A stretch of DNA of 64,000 nucleotides from Synechococcus sp. LA31. GTDB lineage: Bacteria; Cyanobacteriota; Cyanobacteriia; PCC-6307; Cyanobiaceae. Below the pieces are notes generated by a model. The model was given only the letters and a program-made list of their open reading frames with translations. It made no database searches and was not told where the DNA came from. Position 1 is the stretch's first letter. Each line of letters starts with the position of its first letter. A program made the translations under genes and the position numbers. Shown here in pieces: positions 35,197 through 42,444 of this stretch. Location of the stretch: assembly GCF_018502385.1 (NCBI RefSeq), contig NZ_CP075523.1, forward strand, positions 2,356,001 to 2,420,000, given 5' to 3'.

Positions 35197-35574
35197 ATGT
35201 TCGAGACCGTTCTCTTCCCGATCGATCGCAGCCGTCAGGCTGCGGAAACTGCTGCCACGGCCCTCAAACTCGCCCAGCAGCACCAGAGCACGTTGGTGCT
35301 GCTCTCGGTGGTGGAACCCGAGCAGGACGATCCGGTGGCGGTGGCCGAGCTGCTCGAGCAAGCCCGCAGCCGCTTCCAGGAGCAGGGGGTGAGCTGTGAG
35401 GTGATCGAGCGGGAGGGCAAACCAGCCTTCGTGATTTGCGACGTGGCCGATGAGATCAATGCCGATGTGATCGTGATGGGCACGCGAGGGCTCACGCTGG
35501 AGGCTGACGAAGCGCCCAGCACCGCCTCGCGTGTGATCCAGCTGGCGCCCTGCCCTGTGTTGGTGGTTCCGTGA
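35197..35574 (+). CDS. Universal stress protein (UspA family)
   Basis: A single-domain, 125-residue Usp with the start pattern FETVLFPIDRSRQAAETAAT, the VIVMGTRGLT segment and the terminal CPVLVVP strand. The usual ATP-binding G-2x-G-9x-G(S/T) motif is only partly kept (GTRGL then A and S instead of Gly), so ATP binding is doubtful. Its stop overlaps the GTG of the GTPase gene, forming an operon with ylqF-like and rluD-like genes. Confidence 0.88.
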   Translation: MFETVLFPIDRSRQAAETAATALKLAQQHQSTLVLLSVVEPEQDDPVAVAELLEQARSRFQEQGVSCEVIEREGKPAFVICDVADEINADVIVMGTRGLTLEADEAPSTASRVIQLAPCPVLVVP

Positions 35575-36440
35575 GTGAGTTGCTGAGTTCCGCCGCACCG
35601 GCTATCCAGTGGTATCCGGGGCACATCGCCAAGGCGGAGCGCTCACTCACCGGCAACCTCGCCAAGGTGGATTTGGTGATCGAGGTGCGCGATGCGCGGA
35701 TCCCCACTGCCACCGGCCATCCGCGCCTGCAGCGCTGGATCTCGGGCAAGCAGCACCTGCTGGTGCTCAACCGGCGCGACATGATCCCAAGAGTGGCGCA
35801 AGACGCCTGGGATGCCTGGTTCCGCAGCCAGGGGCAGACCCCCTGGTGGAGCGATGCCAGGGCCGGCACAGGCGTGAAGCAGCTGCAGCAGGCGGCGATC
35901 CGCGCCGGTGATGCGCTGAATGAACGCCGCCGCTCGCGCGGCATGTTGCCCCGTCCGGTGCGGGCCCTGATGCTCGGCTTCCCGAACGTGGGCAAGTCGG
36001 CCCTGATCAACCGCCTCGTGCGTCAAAAGGTGGTGGACAGCGCCCGCCGCGCCGGCGTGACCCGCAGCCTGCGCTGGGTGCGTCTGGGGCAGGACTTGGA
36101 CCTCCTGGATGCCCCCGGCGTGCTGCCTCCCCGTCTCGATGACCAGCTTGCGGCGCTGCGGCTCGCTCTGTGTGACGACATCGGCCAGGCCGCCTACGAC
36201 GGTGAGGCCGTGGCGATGGCCTTTGTGCAGATGCTGGCGGGCTTGGAGGGCGTAGCAGCCTCTGGCGTGAAGCCCGGCTTGCTCGAGAGCCGCTACGGGG
36301 TGCCGGTGCCAGATGCCCACGGTTGGCTTGAAGCGGCCGCTGCTCGCCACACCAGCGGCGATAGGGCGCGTATGGCGCAGCGTTTTCTCGACGATTTCCG
36401 CCGCGGCACGCTGGGCCCTCTGGCCCTGGAATTGCCGTGA
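35571..36440 (+). CDS. ylqF: Ribosome biogenesis GTPase YlqF/RbgA-like
   Basis: A circularly permuted GTPase of 289 residues that assists late 50S subunit assembly. The permuted motif order is visible: G4 NRRDM (residues about 64-68) comes before G1 LGFPNVGKSALIN (about 136) and G3 DAPGVLPP (about 184). The C-terminal helical RNA-binding part is present. GTG 35571 overlaps the stop of the stress-protein gene, and the stop overlaps the GTG of the next gene, so translation of all three is coupled. Confidence 0.93.
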   Translation: MSELLSSAAPAIQWYPGHIAKAERSLTGNLAKVDLVIEVRDARIPTATGHPRLQRWISGKQHLLVLNRRDMIPRVAQDAWDAWFRSQGQTPWWSDARAGTGVKQLQQAAIRAGDALNERRRSRGMLPRPVRALMLGFPNVGKSALINRLVRQKVVDSARRAGVTRSLRWVRLGQDLDLLDAPGVLPPRLDDQLAALRLALCDDIGQAAYDGEAVAMAFVQMLAGLEGVAASGVKPGLLESRYGVPVPDAHGWLEAAAARHTSGDRARMAQRFLDDFRRGTLGPLALELP

Positions 36441-37651
36441 GCGGATTCGGCGAAGGCGAAGGGGAGCTGCTCACCCTCACCTACCCCAAGCCGCTGCCGA
36501 TGCGGCTGGATCGCTGGCTGGTGGCCCAGCGGCCAGAGCAGAGCCGTGCCCGCATCCAGAAGTTCATCGAGGCGGGGTATGTGCGGGTGAATGGCGTCAC
36601 AGGCCGCGCCAAAACTCCCCTGCGCCACAGCGACACGGTGGAGCTCTGGATGCCGCCGCCGGAGCCTCTTCCTTATTTGATCCCCCAGGAGATCCCCCTG
36701 GATGTGCTGTTTGAAGACGAGCACTTGATCGTGCTCAACAAACCGGCCGGCCTCACGGTGCACCCGGCCCCGGGCAACAAAGACGGCACCCTGGTGAACG
36801 GCCTGCTGCACCACTGCCCCGACCTGCCGGGCATCAGCGGCAAGCTGCGCCCCGGCATCGTGCACCGCCTGGATAAGGACACCACCGGCTGCATCGTGGT
36901 GGCCAAGAGCCAGGAAGCGCTGGTGAAACTGCAGGTGCAGATCCAAAAGCGCATCGCCTCGCGGGAGTACTTGGCGGTGGTGCACGGTGTGCCTGCTGCA
37001 GAACACGGCACGATCGTGGGGGCGATCGGCCGTCATCCCGCCGACCGCAAGAAATACGCCGTGGTGCACGACGACAGCGGCCGCCATGCCTGCACCCACT
37101 GGACCCTGCTGGAGCGTCTCGGCGACTACTCACTGATGCGCTTCAAGCTCGATACCGGCCGCACCCATCAGATCCGCGTGCATTGCGCCCATATCGGTCA
37201 CCCGATCGTGGGTGATCCGGTGTATTCACGCTGCCGCAAGTTGCCGATGGTGCTGCCCGGGCAGGCCCTGCATGCGTTCCAGTTGGGGCTCGATCACCCG
37301 ATCAACCGTGAGCGGATGCTGTTTGAAGCACCGCTTCCGGAGGTGTTCGACAAGTTGCTGGCCGTTCTGCGTCGCCGCACCCAGACTGGGGCTTCCTTCC
37401 CTCCCGAGGCCTTGTCGATGGCCGAACACAGCCTTCAGGCCTTCATCGTTGCCGTGCGTCAGGATCCGGCTCTACAGCAGCAACTCTCCGGTACGGCTGC
37501 GGCCGACGCTGATGAGGTCGCAGCCATTGCCCGACAAGCTGGCTTCGAGGTGCGCTCCTCTGATCTGGTCAACCATGCCGATGGTGCCCTGGTGGATTAT
37601 GAGGATGAGGACTACTTCATGAAGCCCCAGTGGTGGGAGTTGGCTGGCTGA
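36437..37651 (+). CDS. rluD: RluD-type 23S rRNA pseudouridine synthase with C-terminal Nif11-like domain
   Basis: Residues 1-327 form a normal RluA/RluD-family synthase: an S4 RNA-binding domain (MRLDRWLVAQRPEQSRARIQ), then the catalytic domain with the essential Asp in GIVHRLDKDTTGCIVVAKS and the RTHQIRVH motif. The frame then runs without a stop into residues 328-404, which resemble a complete Nif11 domain (SLQAFIVAVRQDPALQQQL, then ADADEVAAIARQAGFEVRSS) with a Trp-rich tail (PQWWELAG). Related synthases normally end near residue 325. The fusion is unusual and is described separately. Start is GTG 36437, overlapping the upstream stop. Confidence 0.9.
   Translation: MSGFGEGEGELLTLTYPKPLPMRLDRWLVAQRPEQSRARIQKFIEAGYVRVNGVTGRAKTPLRHSDTVELWMPPPEPLPYLIPQEIPLDVLFEDEHLIVLNKPAGLTVHPAPGNKDGTLVNGLLHHCPDLPGISGKLRPGIVHRLDKDTTGCIVVAKSQEALVKLQVQIQKRIASREYLAVVHGVPAAEHGTIVGAIGRHPADRKKYAVVHDDSGRHACTHWTLLERLGDYSLMRFKLDTGRTHQIRVHCAHIGHPIVGDPVYSRCRKLPMVLPGQALHAFQLGLDHPINRERMLFEAPLPEVFDKLLAVLRRRTQTGASFPPEALSMAEHSLQAFIVAVRQDPALQQQLSGTAAADADEVAAIARQAGFEVRSSDLVNHADGALVDYEDEDYFMKPQWWELAG
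37418..37651 (+). other. Nif11-like domain at the end of rluD, possible internal start
   Basis: The segment encoding residues 328-404 of the synthase starts with an in-frame ATG (37418) preceded eight bases upstream by GAGG, so a free 77-residue Nif11 protein could also be made from the same mRNA. It begins MAEHSLQAF, just as free-standing Nif11 proteins do. There is no GG cleavage site or Cys-rich core, so it is not an obvious peptide precursor. Confidence 0.55.
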
Positions 37652-37719
37652 GTAGGCAAGCAGAAGCCTTATTGCGCGATCGGATGGACCGCCACTGACG
37701 TAGGGACCTTGTCTTCCCT

Positions 37720-38190
37720 CTAGTCGTTATTTCCTTTCCAGCCTGAATCACTCAGCGTGAGGGCCGGCTTGATCACGCCGAGGAAAATTTCCATCGACCA
37801 GAGCGCTAGGCCGATGCACGCCAGATTCACCAGCCACCCCAGCAACAATAGTGGGGCTAGAAGAGGTGTAACGCTGGCTGTCATCCCGCTAATCGCCACA
37901 TCCATGCAGCCATCAATGACCGCCAAGAGTGAGGCGAGGAACATCCGAATTGAAGCGCGATAAGCATCAGAAGCTTCTTTTCGTGAAGCTACGCTGAGAA
38001 GTAGGCGTGAAACGCTTACTTGAAAGCTGCCCACCACAAAAAGCACTGCGAAAATGCTGAATGTGGTGAGCTGCCGTAGCTGCGTTATTTCACGCCCTTC
38101 CACTGTGAGGTAGAGGGCCGCAAGCGCCCAGATCATCAATCTGGAGCCCTGGATGAGCCAGGAGCGGGATTGTTTCTTGGGTGCTTGCAT
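37720..38190 (-). CDS. Small multi-span membrane protein
   Basis: About 156 residues (ATG 38190; ATG 38196 is also possible) with four hydrophobic segments: LMIWALAALYL, FSIFAVLFVVGSFQVSVS, FLASLLAVIDGCMDVAISG and LAPLLLLGWLVNLACIGLAL. The N-terminus is basic (QAPKKQSRSW). Its start is 7 to 13 bases from the stop of the calcium-repeat protein gene, so it is likely cotranscribed with it and could help place or export it. No family recognised. Confidence 0.7.
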   Translation of the reverse strand: MQAPKKQSRSWLIQGSRLMIWALAALYLTVEGREITQLRQLTTFSIFAVLFVVGSFQVSVSRLLLSVASRKEASDAYRASIRMFLASLLAVIDGCMDVAISGMTASVTPLLAPLLLLGWLVNLACIGLALWSMEIFLGVIKPALTLSDSGWKGNND

Positions 38191-38203
38191 GGTCATTTGG
38201 CGG

Positions 38204-39610
38204 TTAAGCTAGGTAGTATGAGTCCGCGCCGTTGTTATAGACGATGATGGTGCTTGAGCCATCATTCAAGCCAAGAAGGGAGTCGGTTGTTTGCCGATGG
38301 CCACCGATCAGCTCAAAGCTGGTGAGATTCATGGATGTGTTATTCACCGATGTGTTTGTAAGAGCGCCCGTTTCAGTTGTGCTGTCCCAGCTCAGAATAT
38401 AGGTGCCGTCTGTAAGTCGAATCTGGTCGTTGCCATCGTCTCCGCTGAAGTTGCCTGCGCCGAATCCTGTCACGCTGTCATCGCCAGATCCCATCTTGTA
38501 GGTGCCACCTGTGTATTGGCCAGTGCTTCGATTCTTTTTACCGCCAAATCCACCAATCTGAGCGATCAGGCGATCGTCTCCATCGCCCATGTCAATGGTG
38601 CCCAGGTTCGTTACCCCCTTGGTATCCGTTGCATAGCCGAGAGACTGGCCCCCTTGCCCTGTGATCAGATCATTGCCATCCCCTGTTTTGATGACTGATG
38701 TCGATTCAAGATAAATGCCTGTTCCGATGGCCCCTTGGTTGCCGGCGTTGCCAGTGATTCGGTCGTCGCCATCTCCGGTGTTGATCTTGCTGCCCGATCC
38801 ACCCCAAATTCCGTAGGCAGTTCCCTTGATAAGTCCTGTCGGCTCTGCATCTGCCAGAAGCGTGTCATCCCCTTTGCCGGTTTTGATAATTCCCGTATTA
38901 ACGATGCCATTTTGTCCGCCACTACCGATCACTTGATCGTTGCCGCCGCCGGTTTCAATTGTGCCACTGCTAACGATGCCTGATCCTCCATCTGTTCCTT
39001 GAATCAGATCATTGCCGGATTTAGTCTTGATCGATGCTCCATCGCGGTTGAGTAAACCGGTGTTCCTGCCAGCCCCGTCGCCCTTGATTATGTTATTGCC
39101 GTGACCTCCATCAATCAGGGCTGATTTGTTATTGAGGATGCCAGCATTCGAGGAGGTGCCTTCAACGATGTCATCCCCATCTCCGAGAAGAATTGATGCG
39201 TTTTCGTCGTTGTATACCCCTCCTGAATTGGGTACTGGCAATGGGTCTGAGCCTCCTGATCCGATGACTTGATCATTGCCATCTCCAAAGATTAGACTCG
39301 AGGTAGGAGCGTTGTAAACGGCAGTTTCTCGAGAGTCTCCAGTAACAACATTATTGCCATTGAGTAGATCGGCAAAGCCTGCTGTGAATGGAATATTCCG
39401 GGTCTCTGGAAAGCCATTGGAGATCCGTGCTGGCCGGCCGCCACCCCACTGTTCGGGGACATCATCTGCTTCATTCGTATAGTCGCTGTTGTAGTCAGAC
39501 GGGTTGACGATCTTTTCGTCATTGATCAACGACTGAGGTTGTGAGGTGATGCCAAGTTCAGCAATCAAGCCTTTGGTGAATCCAATCGCTTTGCCTTTGT
39601 TTGCTGGCAT
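38204..39610 (-). CDS. Repeat protein with RTX-like calcium-binding motifs
   Basis: A 468-residue acidic protein without signal peptide. From about residue 110 to 420 it carries about ten units of 22-33 residues built on the pattern G-x-G-(D/N)-D-x-(I/V/L)-x-G followed by G-(I/L)-x-N-x-G-x-I (for example GDGNDQVIGSGG, GDGDDIVEGTSS, GKGDDTLLADAE, GDGDDRITGNAG). This resembles RTX beta-roll repeats that bind Ca2+ in proteins exported by type I systems. No type I transporter is in the window. Composition is lower in GC than the flanks. It lies between a LuxR-type regulator and a membrane protein, all on the minus strand. Confidence 0.75.
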   Translation of the reverse strand: MPANKGKAIGFTKGLIAELGITSQPQSLINDEKIVNPSDYNSDYTNEADDVPEQWGGGRPARISNGFPETRNIPFTAGFADLLNGNNVVTGDSRETAVYNAPTSSLIFGDGNDQVIGSGGSDPLPVPNSGGVYNDENASILLGDGDDIVEGTSSNAGILNNKSALIDGGHGNNIIKGDGAGRNTGLLNRDGASIKTKSGNDLIQGTDGGSGIVSSGTIETGGGNDQVIGSGGQNGIVNTGIIKTGKGDDTLLADAEPTGLIKGTAYGIWGGSGSKINTGDGDDRITGNAGNQGAIGTGIYLESTSVIKTGDGNDLITGQGGQSLGYATDTKGVTNLGTIDMGDGDDRLIAQIGGFGGKKNRSTGQYTGGTYKMGSGDDSVTGFGAGNFSGDDGNDQIRLTDGTYILSWDSTTETGALTNTSVNNTSMNLTSFELIGGHRQTTDSLLGLNDGSSTIIVYNNGADSYYLA

Positions 39611-39662
39611 GGTGGTTCTGTGTGCACTCTTTTGTATTTTGGAGATGCTCGTGCTGGCTGCC

Positions 39663-39680
39663 TACCCTCCGTTGAGGGTA
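39663..39680. other. Inverted repeat between the LuxR-type and RTX-like genes
   Basis: TACCCTC (39663-39669) pairs perfectly with GAGGGTA (39674-39680) around a 4-base loop. There is no T-run on either strand. It could be an operator for the upstream LuxR-type protein or a transcript-processing hairpin. Confidence 0.35.
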
Positions 39681-39717
39681 TTTGGGACAGGGCTTCCAGA
39701 GGAGCTTTGGGGCTTGT

Positions 39718-40434
39718 TTAGCTCGCGATCTTGCTGATCCCCATGGCAACTGCTTTGAGCAGGGCTTTTTGTCTGTTCTTGACACCAAGCTTGGCAAGCA
39801 AATCTGAGCTGTATGTCTGAACTGTGTACGTTGAAAGCCCAAGGGCTTGGGCTGCTTCCCGGTTTGTGAGGCCCATTGAATAACAGCGTAGAATGTCATG
39901 CTCTCTGGAAGTTAGCTGAATCGCCGAACTGTCGTCGCTGTTTGTCGCGAGGTCAAGCGCTGTATGTAGCTCGAGGATCCCTGTGCTGCGATATTGCGTG
40001 TTGGTTAGCATGGCCATTAGGCCTTGGTAAACGGGGAACTCATCGACCCCGATGTCGGCATCAGCGATCAGGGCGTGAAACTGAGTGCAGCGTTGACTGC
40101 TGATCGGGTCTTGAAGGATCGCCATCATGCGAAGATTGGGCTGGATTTTGGTTGCCCGTGCTCCAAGAGAAGTGATTTGGCCTTCTTTTAGTCGATCACC
40201 TACAACCATCAGTCCGACGCGTTGTTCTTTCAGAGCGTTGATTGCTTCGCTCTCTCCCTCGCAGGCGGCAATCACATTGAGGTGCTTGAACTGATCGGCC
40301 AGCAGCCCAAGCAAGGCGCGCGATTGAAACACCAGGATGATGGATCGATCAATGTCAGAACACGCAACCGCATGCATGATCCTTCGCCTGAGGATGCTAA
40401 AGCGCTGGTTGGAGCTCGCCTTCAGCGGAAACAT
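39718..40434 (-). CDS. LuxR-type transcriptional regulator with receiver-like N-terminus
   Basis: The last 65 residues are a clear GerE/LuxR helix-turn-helix (QLTSREHDILRCYSMGLTNR, then EAAQALGLSTYTVQTYSSDL). The first 140 residues have the alternating pattern of a receiver domain (SIILVFQSRALLGLLADQF, VGLMVVGDRLKEGQITSLGA), but the position of the phospho-acceptor reads VVGDRL and the acidic pair near the start is missing, so phosphorylation is doubtful. Starts at 40434 or 40377 are both possible. It precedes the RTX-like gene on the same strand and is its likely regulator. Confidence 0.78.
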   Translation of the reverse strand: MFPLKASSNQRFSILRRRIMHAVACSDIDRSIILVFQSRALLGLLADQFKHLNVIAACEGESEAINALKEQRVGLMVVGDRLKEGQITSLGARATKIQPNLRMMAILQDPISSQRCTQFHALIADADIGVDEFPVYQGLMAMLTNTQYRSTGILELHTALDLATNSDDSSAIQLTSREHDILRCYSMGLTNREAAQALGLSTYTVQTYSSDLLAKLGVKNRQKALLKAVAMGISKIAS

Positions 40435-40812: not shown

Positions 40813-42444
40813 TCAAGCCGCTGATGGCAACCGTGGGCATGCATCCACCAGCGTGCGGGTGATGGCTGCCTGCGGATGCTCCAGCAGTTGATCGCCGGGC
40901 CCCTGCTCCACGATCCGGCCCCCGTCGAGCACGATCACCCGCTGGCAGAAGCCGCTGGCCACCGAGAGGTCGTGCGTCACAAAGATCATCCCGAGCCCCA
41001 GCCGTTCCTGTAGCTCCCGCAGCAGTTGCAACACCTCGGCTTGGATCTCAGCGTCGAGCATGCTCACGCTTTCATCGCACAGCAGCACCTGGGGTTGCAG
41101 CACCAGGGCGCGCGCGATCGCCACCCGTTGCTGTTGGCCGCCCGAGAGCTGGCGCGGCAGGCGGTTGGCATAGGCCTCTGGTGGGTTGAGCCCTACGGCC
41201 GCCAGTAGCTCCCGGGCCCGTTCGCGGGCTTCGGCGCGGCTGGCCATCCCGTGAATCAGTAGTGGATCGGCGATGGCGTCGGCCACGGTCATCACCGGGT
41301 TGAGGCAGGCCAGCGGGTCTTGGAACACCATCTGAATGCGTCGCCGTGCCCGCCGCAGCGGCTCGCCTCGCAATCGGCGTAGATCCTGGCCCTGGAGCCG
41401 CACGCTCCCGCCGCGCACCGGTACCAGACCCATCAGGGCCCGGCACAGGGTGCTCTTGCCGCAGCCTGAGGCCCCCACCACGCCCACGGTTTCACCCTGG
41501 CGCAGTTTCAGGCTGACCCCATCCACAGCCCGGTACCAACGCCGCTGCCAGGGAAGGCCCGGCAGCGGATGCCAGCAGCGCAGATCCTCCAGTTCCAAAA
41601 GCAGCGGTGCATCGGCCGGGGCTGCCGGCGTGCGGCTGCCCTCGCGAGCACGGGCTGCGTGCACCAGCCGTTGCCCCAGATCGGATTGCGGCTGGGTGAG
41701 CAGCTGGGTGGCGGCTGCCTGCTCCACCAGGCGCCCCTGATCGAGCACGGCGATCTGCTGGCACCAGCGGCCCGCCATGGCCAGATCGTGGCTGATGAGG
41801 AGCAGTGCCGTGCCTGATTCCTCGCACAGCCGGCAGAGCTCCTCCATCACCTGCCCCGCCACGGCCACATCCAGGCTGGTGGTGGGTTCATCGGCGATCA
41901 CCAGCGCTGGCTCCAGCGCCATCGCCAGGGCGATCGCCAGCCGCTGGCGCATGCCGCCACTGAACTCGTGGGGGTAGCTGCCGTAGCGATCGCAGCTGAT
42001 GCCGACCCGCTCCAGCAACATCTCTGCCCGCAGCCGCACTTGGTGGCGTTTCCAGCTGGGGCGGTGTTGGGCGAGGGTGTCGGCGAGGTGCTCGCCAATG
42101 TTCAGCAGCGGGTTGAGCCGCGTCATCGGGTCTTGAAACACCAGGCCCACCGCCTCGCCCCGTAGCTGCCGCAGCGCGCCACGCCGCAACGCCCGCGGAT
42201 CTTTGCCGCCTAGCTCCAGCCCGCCGCTGCAGGTGCTCCCCAATGGCAGCAGCTGCAGCACCGCCCGGGCCACGGTGCTCTTGCCGCAGCCAGAGGGACC
42301 CACCAGGGCCAGGCGCTCGCCGGCGTTGAGGGTCAGCGTCAGCCCGGCCAGCGTGTCGCTGGTGGCAGCCGGGTAGCGCACCACTAATTGATCGAGCTTC
42401 AGCACCGGCTCAGCGCTCTGCCGTGCGGCCATCGGTTGAGGCAC
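40813..42444 (-). CDS. Fused oligopeptide/dipeptide ABC transporter ATPase (DppD-DppF type)
   Basis: The 543 residues contain two complete ABC ATPase domains. The first has Walker [16 protein letters not shown], signature [12 protein letters not shown] and Walker [13 protein letters not shown]. The second has [29 protein letters not shown] and [12 protein letters not shown]. Both also have the MtR-like FQDP motif of the Opp/Dpp family. The two normally separate ATPases of a peptide or nickel transporter are thus one polypeptide that supplies both sites. No permease or binding protein gene is near. ATG may be 42444 or a few codons later (MAARQ). Confidence 0.92.

Follow-up and report, generated by a model that had tools for sequence, protein, structure and literature searches.

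Can a small Nif11 domain be a lasting part of an enzyme that modifies ribosomal RNA, and what could it do there? The question is raised by a gene in the window, i.e. the whole stretch of 64,000 nucleotides analysed here (G000:C1:2356001-2420000), which comes from the one-contig genome of a picocyanobacterial genus (g1 in the following). The gene (36437..37651, plus strand) encodes, in an open frame, a protein of 404 amino acids in which a pseudouridine synthase of the RluA/RluD family is joined to Nif11. The original prediction, made from the DNA alone, held that Nif11 domains are known as leader peptides and not as tails of rRNA enzymes. This matches the accessible parts of the literature searched, although Nif11 also occurs there outside of plain leaders (Nif11-cupin proteins, unk10). 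In these parts no description of an RluD-Nif11 architecture was found, nor is the fusion described in the available portions of PMC2887384, PMC3877281, PMC10783134 and PMC12455567. We regard the locus as a real fusion between two known components, an rRNA enzyme and a small domain, which is conserved but patchily distributed among some lake picocyanobacteria, an arrangement undescribed within these sources; the function of the tail we can only infer.

Architecture of the fused gene

The frame runs without internal stop from a GTG at 36437 to a TGA at 37649-37651. Along its product lie, in this order, an S4 RNA-binding domain (residues 22-68, 36500..36640; PF01479, 35.2 bits, cut-off 22.8), the catalytic domain PseudoU_synth_2 (residues 96-252, 36722..37192; PF00849, 109.9 bits, cut-off 26.8), a linker of low model confidence (residues 317-327, 37385..37417) and a complete Nif11 domain of 77 amino acids followed by the stop (residues 328-404, 37418..37651), all on the plus strand. 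The Nif11 profile PF07862 matches residues 328-377 (43.7 bits, cut-off 23.8). The tail begins with a methionine of its own, Met328, and has a Trp-Trp end, a C-terminal beta-hairpin and Trp-Trp helix (DEDYFMKPxWW, 37592..37642, plus strand) recognised from structure model and alignment. The translation and the profile matches hence bear out what had been predicted for this gene, namely one continuous frame with a complete RluD-type synthase in residues 1-327 and a complete Nif11 protein, with its own Met and Trp-rich tail, in residues 328-404. The distance from Gln316-Thr317 to the Nif11 Met is constant in all 16 fused genes reported below (in G416 the dipeptide is Gln-Ser), two of which have 3 and 7 extra residues in the part that precedes it.

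The synthase part exceeds the cut-off of TIGR00005 (rluA_subfam; 290.1 against 192.7 bits) and stays below that of NF008385, the equivalog model of E. coli-type RluD (244.4 against 351 bits), so that an RluD function is assigned here by homology. In RluA/RluD synthases the active-site aspartate sits in an HRLDxxTSG-like motif. The motif of the fused protein reads HRLDKDTTG, its residues H143, R144, L145 and D146 are invariant in all 43 aligned rows, and Asp146 is presumably the catalytic aspartate. Among solved structures the nearest are of E. coli RluD, one of which shows the enzyme on a pre-50S particle; by homology to RluD, the synthase would still modify helix 69 of the 23S rRNA.

The tail as a domain and as a putative leader

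Modelled alone (m4de3111f9025), the tail reaches a mean pLDDT of 86.2 with four helices, a beta-hairpin and a short Trp-Trp helix, and is thus predicted to fold independently. In the full-length model (pLDDT 70.0), the Nif11 helices are at 57-74, and both linker and C-terminal tail portion fall below 50, a confidence too low for any docking of the domains to be read from it. A Foldseek search with the tail gave no match at E 0.001 or better. VIA-align returned a best Z of 5.6, several winged-helix-type proteins and, with a Z of 3.4, the Nif11 leader 9zn4; all these scores lie in the range that the tool calls common, and therefore no function is read from the fold.

One could suppose that the leader of a ribosomally synthesised peptide (RiPP) was fused to rluD by chance and is processed as a natural-product precursor. 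The leader_Nif11 model TIGR03798 indeed scores above its cut-off (38.1 against 32.3 bits, covering only positions 1-53 of the 68 in the profile), and the tails of some relatives contain a Gly-Gly (e.g. NHAGGALV), albeit outside a leader context. The hallmark of Nif11 leaders, as given in the accessible part of PMC2887384, is a Gly-Gly cleavage motif (ELSDEELEAVAGG) and then a region rich in Cys, Gly and Ser. The window tail ends in ...DEDYFMKPQWWELAG and has neither a Gly-Gly nor, by that measure, a leader cleavage site; a site of the ELSDEELxxVAGG type is absent from the tails, and no core peptide lies behind the domain in the window or its relatives. A search for one modifying-enzyme family, the lanthipeptide dehydratase PF13575, gave no match in any of the 16 fused genomes, of which several are incomplete (68-88%). 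The same profile detected the dehydratase in the added genomes G275 and G208 and in G135, a genome with a split gene pair, and in none of the 14 standard control genomes. Because cleavage site and core peptide are missing and no dehydratase was found in the fused genomes, the tail is, judging by its sequence, not a typical leader peptide, and we consider its processing as a natural-product precursor very improbable.

Further Nif11 proteins are present in the window's genome, where nine matches exceed the Pfam cut-off, the fused one included. Two near-identical ones (MSWSELERFVADVEADAALQ...) lie about 54 kb apart (G000:C1:285959-286099 and 340242-340382; L128, L129), and there is one copy of a Nif11-cupin protein (TIGR03890), a full-length profile against which the fused protein itself scores 13.9 bits (cut-off 159.45). 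A contig scan gave one match in Opitutae, a short Nif11 protein ending in a leader-type Gly-Gly stretch.

Distribution among relatives

When 99 genomes were searched, among them that of the window, full-length matches were obtained in the latter and in seven others, and searches with the tail lifted the total to 16 fused genomes. These belong to three genera of one picocyanobacterial family (7 of 25 genomes in g1, the window's genus, 6 of 13 in g30 and 3 of 16 in g70), and identity to the window protein is 95-97% within g1 and 80-85% outside. Three of the fused genomes consist of a single contig (G000, which is the window's own, G013 and G218). Among the 25 g1 genomes, G003, G009 and G017 were left out, having no complete rluD; G460 and G314 gave no rluD match at the cut-off.

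In two relatives the domains are separate neighbouring genes: nif11 starts 28 nt past the rluD stop and in a different frame in G340 (g80), and 39 nt past it in the same frame in G135 (g72). The contigs of G437 and G456 start inside nif11, and these two genomes enter neither the fused nor the split count. A profile search up to 1.5 kb downstream finds no nif11 at 46 of 64 compared rluD loci (four of the 46 have just 310-750 nt of downstream sequence), which shows that the tail is dispensable. Across a family sample of 400 genomes, 29 carry such a tail, comprising the 16 fused and 2 split cases, 2 at contig ends and 9 free-standing elsewhere, and among 386 genomes across the phylum matches at 1e-12 occur in seven, all of the same family. 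Six of the nine free-standing cases were inspected. Five of them, all in g34, adjoin a gene for a short-chain dehydrogenase (identified by a Pfam run on one of the five genomes) and not a ribosome gene, so the Nif11 domain has no fixed ribosomal role. In L047 of g34, this gene pair occupies L047:244-1242 and L047:1486-1722; the tail relative is located just upstream of the dehydrogenase gene, which has a conserved DADKAYKDSKLCN stretch in the five genomes inspected.

These data also bear on the idea that a sequencing or assembly error deleted a stop. The original prediction named, as what would speak for an error, relatives in which rluD stops normally and nif11 is a gene of its own, together with reads that reveal a wrong base; such relatives exist in G135 and G340. 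The open frame is common to 16 genomes, three of them in one contig, with many differing silent bases, and recurrence of the fusion in 15 genomes besides the window's own excludes a local sequencing error; we give this reading practically no weight. The split pairs are another state of a patchy gene and no indication of a wrong base in the window.

Gene neighbourhood

Directly upstream lies ylqF (35571..36440, plus strand; TIGR03596, 281.3 bits, cut-off 208.2), the gene of a ribosome-biogenesis GTPase, whose stop overlaps the rluD GTG (GTGA). Downstream, a convergent gene for an ABC transporter ATPase (40813..42444, minus strand) follows about 3 kb from the fused stop. In this distance the window is the exception, as 15 of the 16 fused genomes have an ABC gene whose 3' end either reaches into the fused gene or stops at most 45 nt short of its stop; an overlap with the end of the fused gene is seen in the other six fused g1 genomes. 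At 29 of the 46 loci without nif11 the ABC gene lies at most 50 nt from the rluD stop or overlaps it. By these distances in fused and unfused loci, nif11 occupies the exact junction of two genes that in its absence are often in contact. An Rfam search over 36000-38400 found no family.

The roughly 3 kb that separate the fused gene from the ABC gene in the window (37720-40434, minus strand) hold genes for a protein of 158 amino acids and one of 468, both without a Pfam match and the latter with repeated Gly/Asp-rich stretches, and for a LuxR-type regulator. In 11 unfused g1 genomes (L009-L017, L019, L022) the last codons of rluD are antisense to the convergent ABC gene, with whose 3' end rluD shares 16-43 nt. 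A similar overlap is seen in G290 (g30) and in G458 and G213 (g70), and therefore can arise more than once.

History and selection

On a tree of ylqF plus rluD (64 rows, YlqF missing from five), the presence of nif11 is patchy and needs seven changes, and the fused genes as one clade are rejected (AU p 0.0089). The fused g1 members fall inside the grade of the 11 unfused g1 genomes with the rluD/ABC overlap, and the fused form may therefore have come there by exchange, although the overlap is also known from the three genomes of other genera named above. The tree of the tails unites the split and contig-end tails (bootstrap 91, SH-aLRT 100), the remainder being poorly resolved. At four sites the split tails agree with the free-standing relatives against the fused ones and at no site the other way round, a small count, made on 11 of the 16 fused tails, 2 split and 3 free-standing ones, on account of which the sequences suggest that nif11 was first separate and was fused later.

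Silent differences between genera amount to 0.499 in the tail and 0.377 in RluD for g1-g30, to 0.555 and 0.462 for g1-g70, and are about equal for g30-g70 (0.443 and 0.464). These values do not support the idea that one sampled genus recently passed the tail to another, its silent divergence being similar to or higher than that of RluD, and no donor is indicated among these genera; the patchiness may stem from gain by exchange with an unsampled relative or from repeated loss. The ratio pN/pS is 0.114 for the tail and 0.039 for RluD within g1 (21 pairs), 0.457 and 0.229 in g30 (15 pairs), and 0.164 and 0.046 in g70 (3 pairs); over all 120 pairs it is 0.307 for the tail, 0.186 for RluD and 0.607 for the linker. 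The tail is under purifying selection, which is weaker than that on RluD.

One product or two

Besides the fusion, a free Nif11 protein of 77 residues could be made from an internal promoter or translation start inside rluD. All 16 fused tails have kept Met328, yet this invariance says little, since 38 of the 77 tail columns are invariant anyway. The GAGG noted in the original prediction before this Met is present (37406..37409, plus strand) and pairs with the anti-Shine-Dalgarno sequence at -5.9 kcal/mol (-5.6 to -9.5 in the other six fused g1 genes). As an argument for an internal start it stays at the level of chance, because, of 268 in-frame ATG codons inside rluD, 36% are preceded by a pairing of -5.6 or better; moreover, the pairing is weak (-3.2 or weaker) in 4 of 6 fused genes of g30 and 3 of 3 of g70. 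An internal Shine-Dalgarno function of the GAGG was hence rejected.

A second element, the DNA motif CAGACTG (37382..37388, plus strand), speaks more for a second product. It lies 36 nt before the nif11 ATG in all 16 fused genes (13 exact, 2 CAAACTG, 1 CAGAGTG) and in split G340, where its last bases start the rluD stop, and 34 nt before the ATG in split G135. With respect to reading frame, the motif is out of the rluD frame and in the nif11 frame in G340, and out of the nif11 frame in G135. All 16 fused genes share the T at the third position of its ACT or AGT codon; a third-position T in at least 15 rows is found in 2 of 382 codon columns, the other being an Asp codon, and in 94 four-fold columns T reaches 6 of 16 at most. 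As the motif of G340 keeps the nif11 frame, only G135, among the split genes, and this silent T argue against a cause at the protein level.

A usp start could be recognised in 32 relatives, and 18 of these, members of g30, g70 and g72, also have the motif 28-64 nt before the usp ATG, in the pgk-usp intergenic region (e.g. L111, L116, L076). Its density per kb is higher in intergenic sequence than inside predicted genes (0.125 against 0.016 in G053 and 0.137 against 0.048 in G000). Both observations count in favour of a second product, but the intergenic excess may have its cause in mere codon bias. As a general -10 element, CAGACT was rejected: it is not enriched before predicted genes (1 observed and 2.5 expected in G000, 2 and 1.6 in G053), whereas TANNNT is, in a test on 384 kb of G000 and 400 kb of G053 with a home-made gene-start predictor that could miss a weak signal. 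Within 80 nt upstream of the other Nif11 genes of G000, with starts set mechanically, none of 11 shows CAGACT, CAAACT or CAGAGT. In the whole window CAGACTG is not over-represented (6 against 11.5 expected), its combination with an ATG at such a spacing occurs once (1.7 expected), and no sigma-70-like promoter was found in 36900-37900. Among the hexamers most enriched before predicted genes of G000 (L147-L162, window) are TGATCA-like ones (TGATCA, CTGATC, GATCAG, GTGATC).

Weighing the position of CAGACTG and its silent T against these negative results, we consider a free Nif11 protein beside the fusion rather unlikely; such a protein can coexist with the fusion explanation preferred below. 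A more specific version, to which we assign still less credence, would have the locus yield, next to the ribosome-assembly enzyme with its built-in Nif11, a free Nif11 protein expressed from a nif11-specific control element around CAGACTG that outlasted the fusion within the rluD coding sequence, with the balance of fused and free Nif11 tuning late 50S maturation to a signal that Nif11 reads. If true, the reading of a tethered/free balance would be a role of Nif11 outside peptide biosynthesis.

A probable tethered accessory domain

On balance, we think that the fusion, which is real, probably serves to tether Nif11 to RluD as an accessory domain. A small nif11 downstream of rluD, as in some relatives, would have been joined in frame to give a single protein of 404 residues, composed of an RluD-type synthase with intact motif and a Nif11 domain that folds by itself, connected by a linker that is short and flexible. 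The Nif11 domain would serve as a tethered protein-binding module that recruits a partner to RluD or adjusts RluD itself, possibly during late 50S assembly, the YlqF gene being adjacent. For G135 and G340, this explanation has the module working in trans, as a small protein of its own that is presumably translated from a transcript shared with rluD. The link of the fusion to ribosome maturation is something we infer. This explanation draws on the 16 fused and two split genomes, the constraint on the tail and its model when folded alone (pLDDT 86.2), and further on the rluA-subfamily match, the structural kinship to RluD in the pre-50S particle, ylqF upstream and the polarity count. Against it stand the dispensability of the tail, the g34 copies beside a dehydrogenase, the undocked model and a tail that evolves faster than RluD in terms of pN/pS.

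Part of the same evidence would also suit a functionally neutral fusion, in which RluD simply carries a Nif11 that has a task of its own, without effect on the enzyme. Both the split state and absence are tolerated, the linker varies and is modelled with low confidence, and free-standing relatives exist elsewhere; on the other hand, three genera have retained the fusion, and its tail is constrained, a weak objection, as the constraint may serve the tail alone. We hold neutrality to be possible but doubtful, and prefer the tethered module.

For Nif11 proteins outside of peptide biosynthesis, no role was found in the accessible parts of the literature searched. The conserved fusion provides a way in, as the target of the enzyme is known and a Nif11 partner can be sought via RluD, and the locus displays the states of a fusion side by side in living relatives, with no gene, a separate neighbour or a fused one.

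Comparison with known systems

With RluD (TIGR00005; PDB 1v9f, 2ist, 7bl5) the fused protein shares S4 and PseudoU_synth_2 across the whole length as well as the invariant HRLDKDTTG motif; it differs in the additional Nif11 domain of 77 residues and, from E. coli-type RluD, in scoring under the NF008385 cut-off. The Nif11 helices are shared with Nif11 leaders (TIGR03798; MppE leader, PDB 9zn4, the latter matched by profile at E 2.3e-7), but the fused domain sits C-terminally on an enzyme, ends in a beta-hairpin and Trp-Trp motif, and is devoid of a leader-type cleavage site and core peptide. Nif11-cupin proteins (TIGR03890) likewise combine Nif11 with another domain in one protein; there Nif11 is N-terminal and its partner a cupin, unlike the C-terminal Nif11 on RluD. 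Finally, unk10, a small Nif11 protein encoded in the chromatic-acclimation island of marine Synechococcus, is not presented as a RiPP in the accessible part of its description (PMC3877281) and, unlike the Nif11 fused to RluD, is the product of a separate gene of that island.
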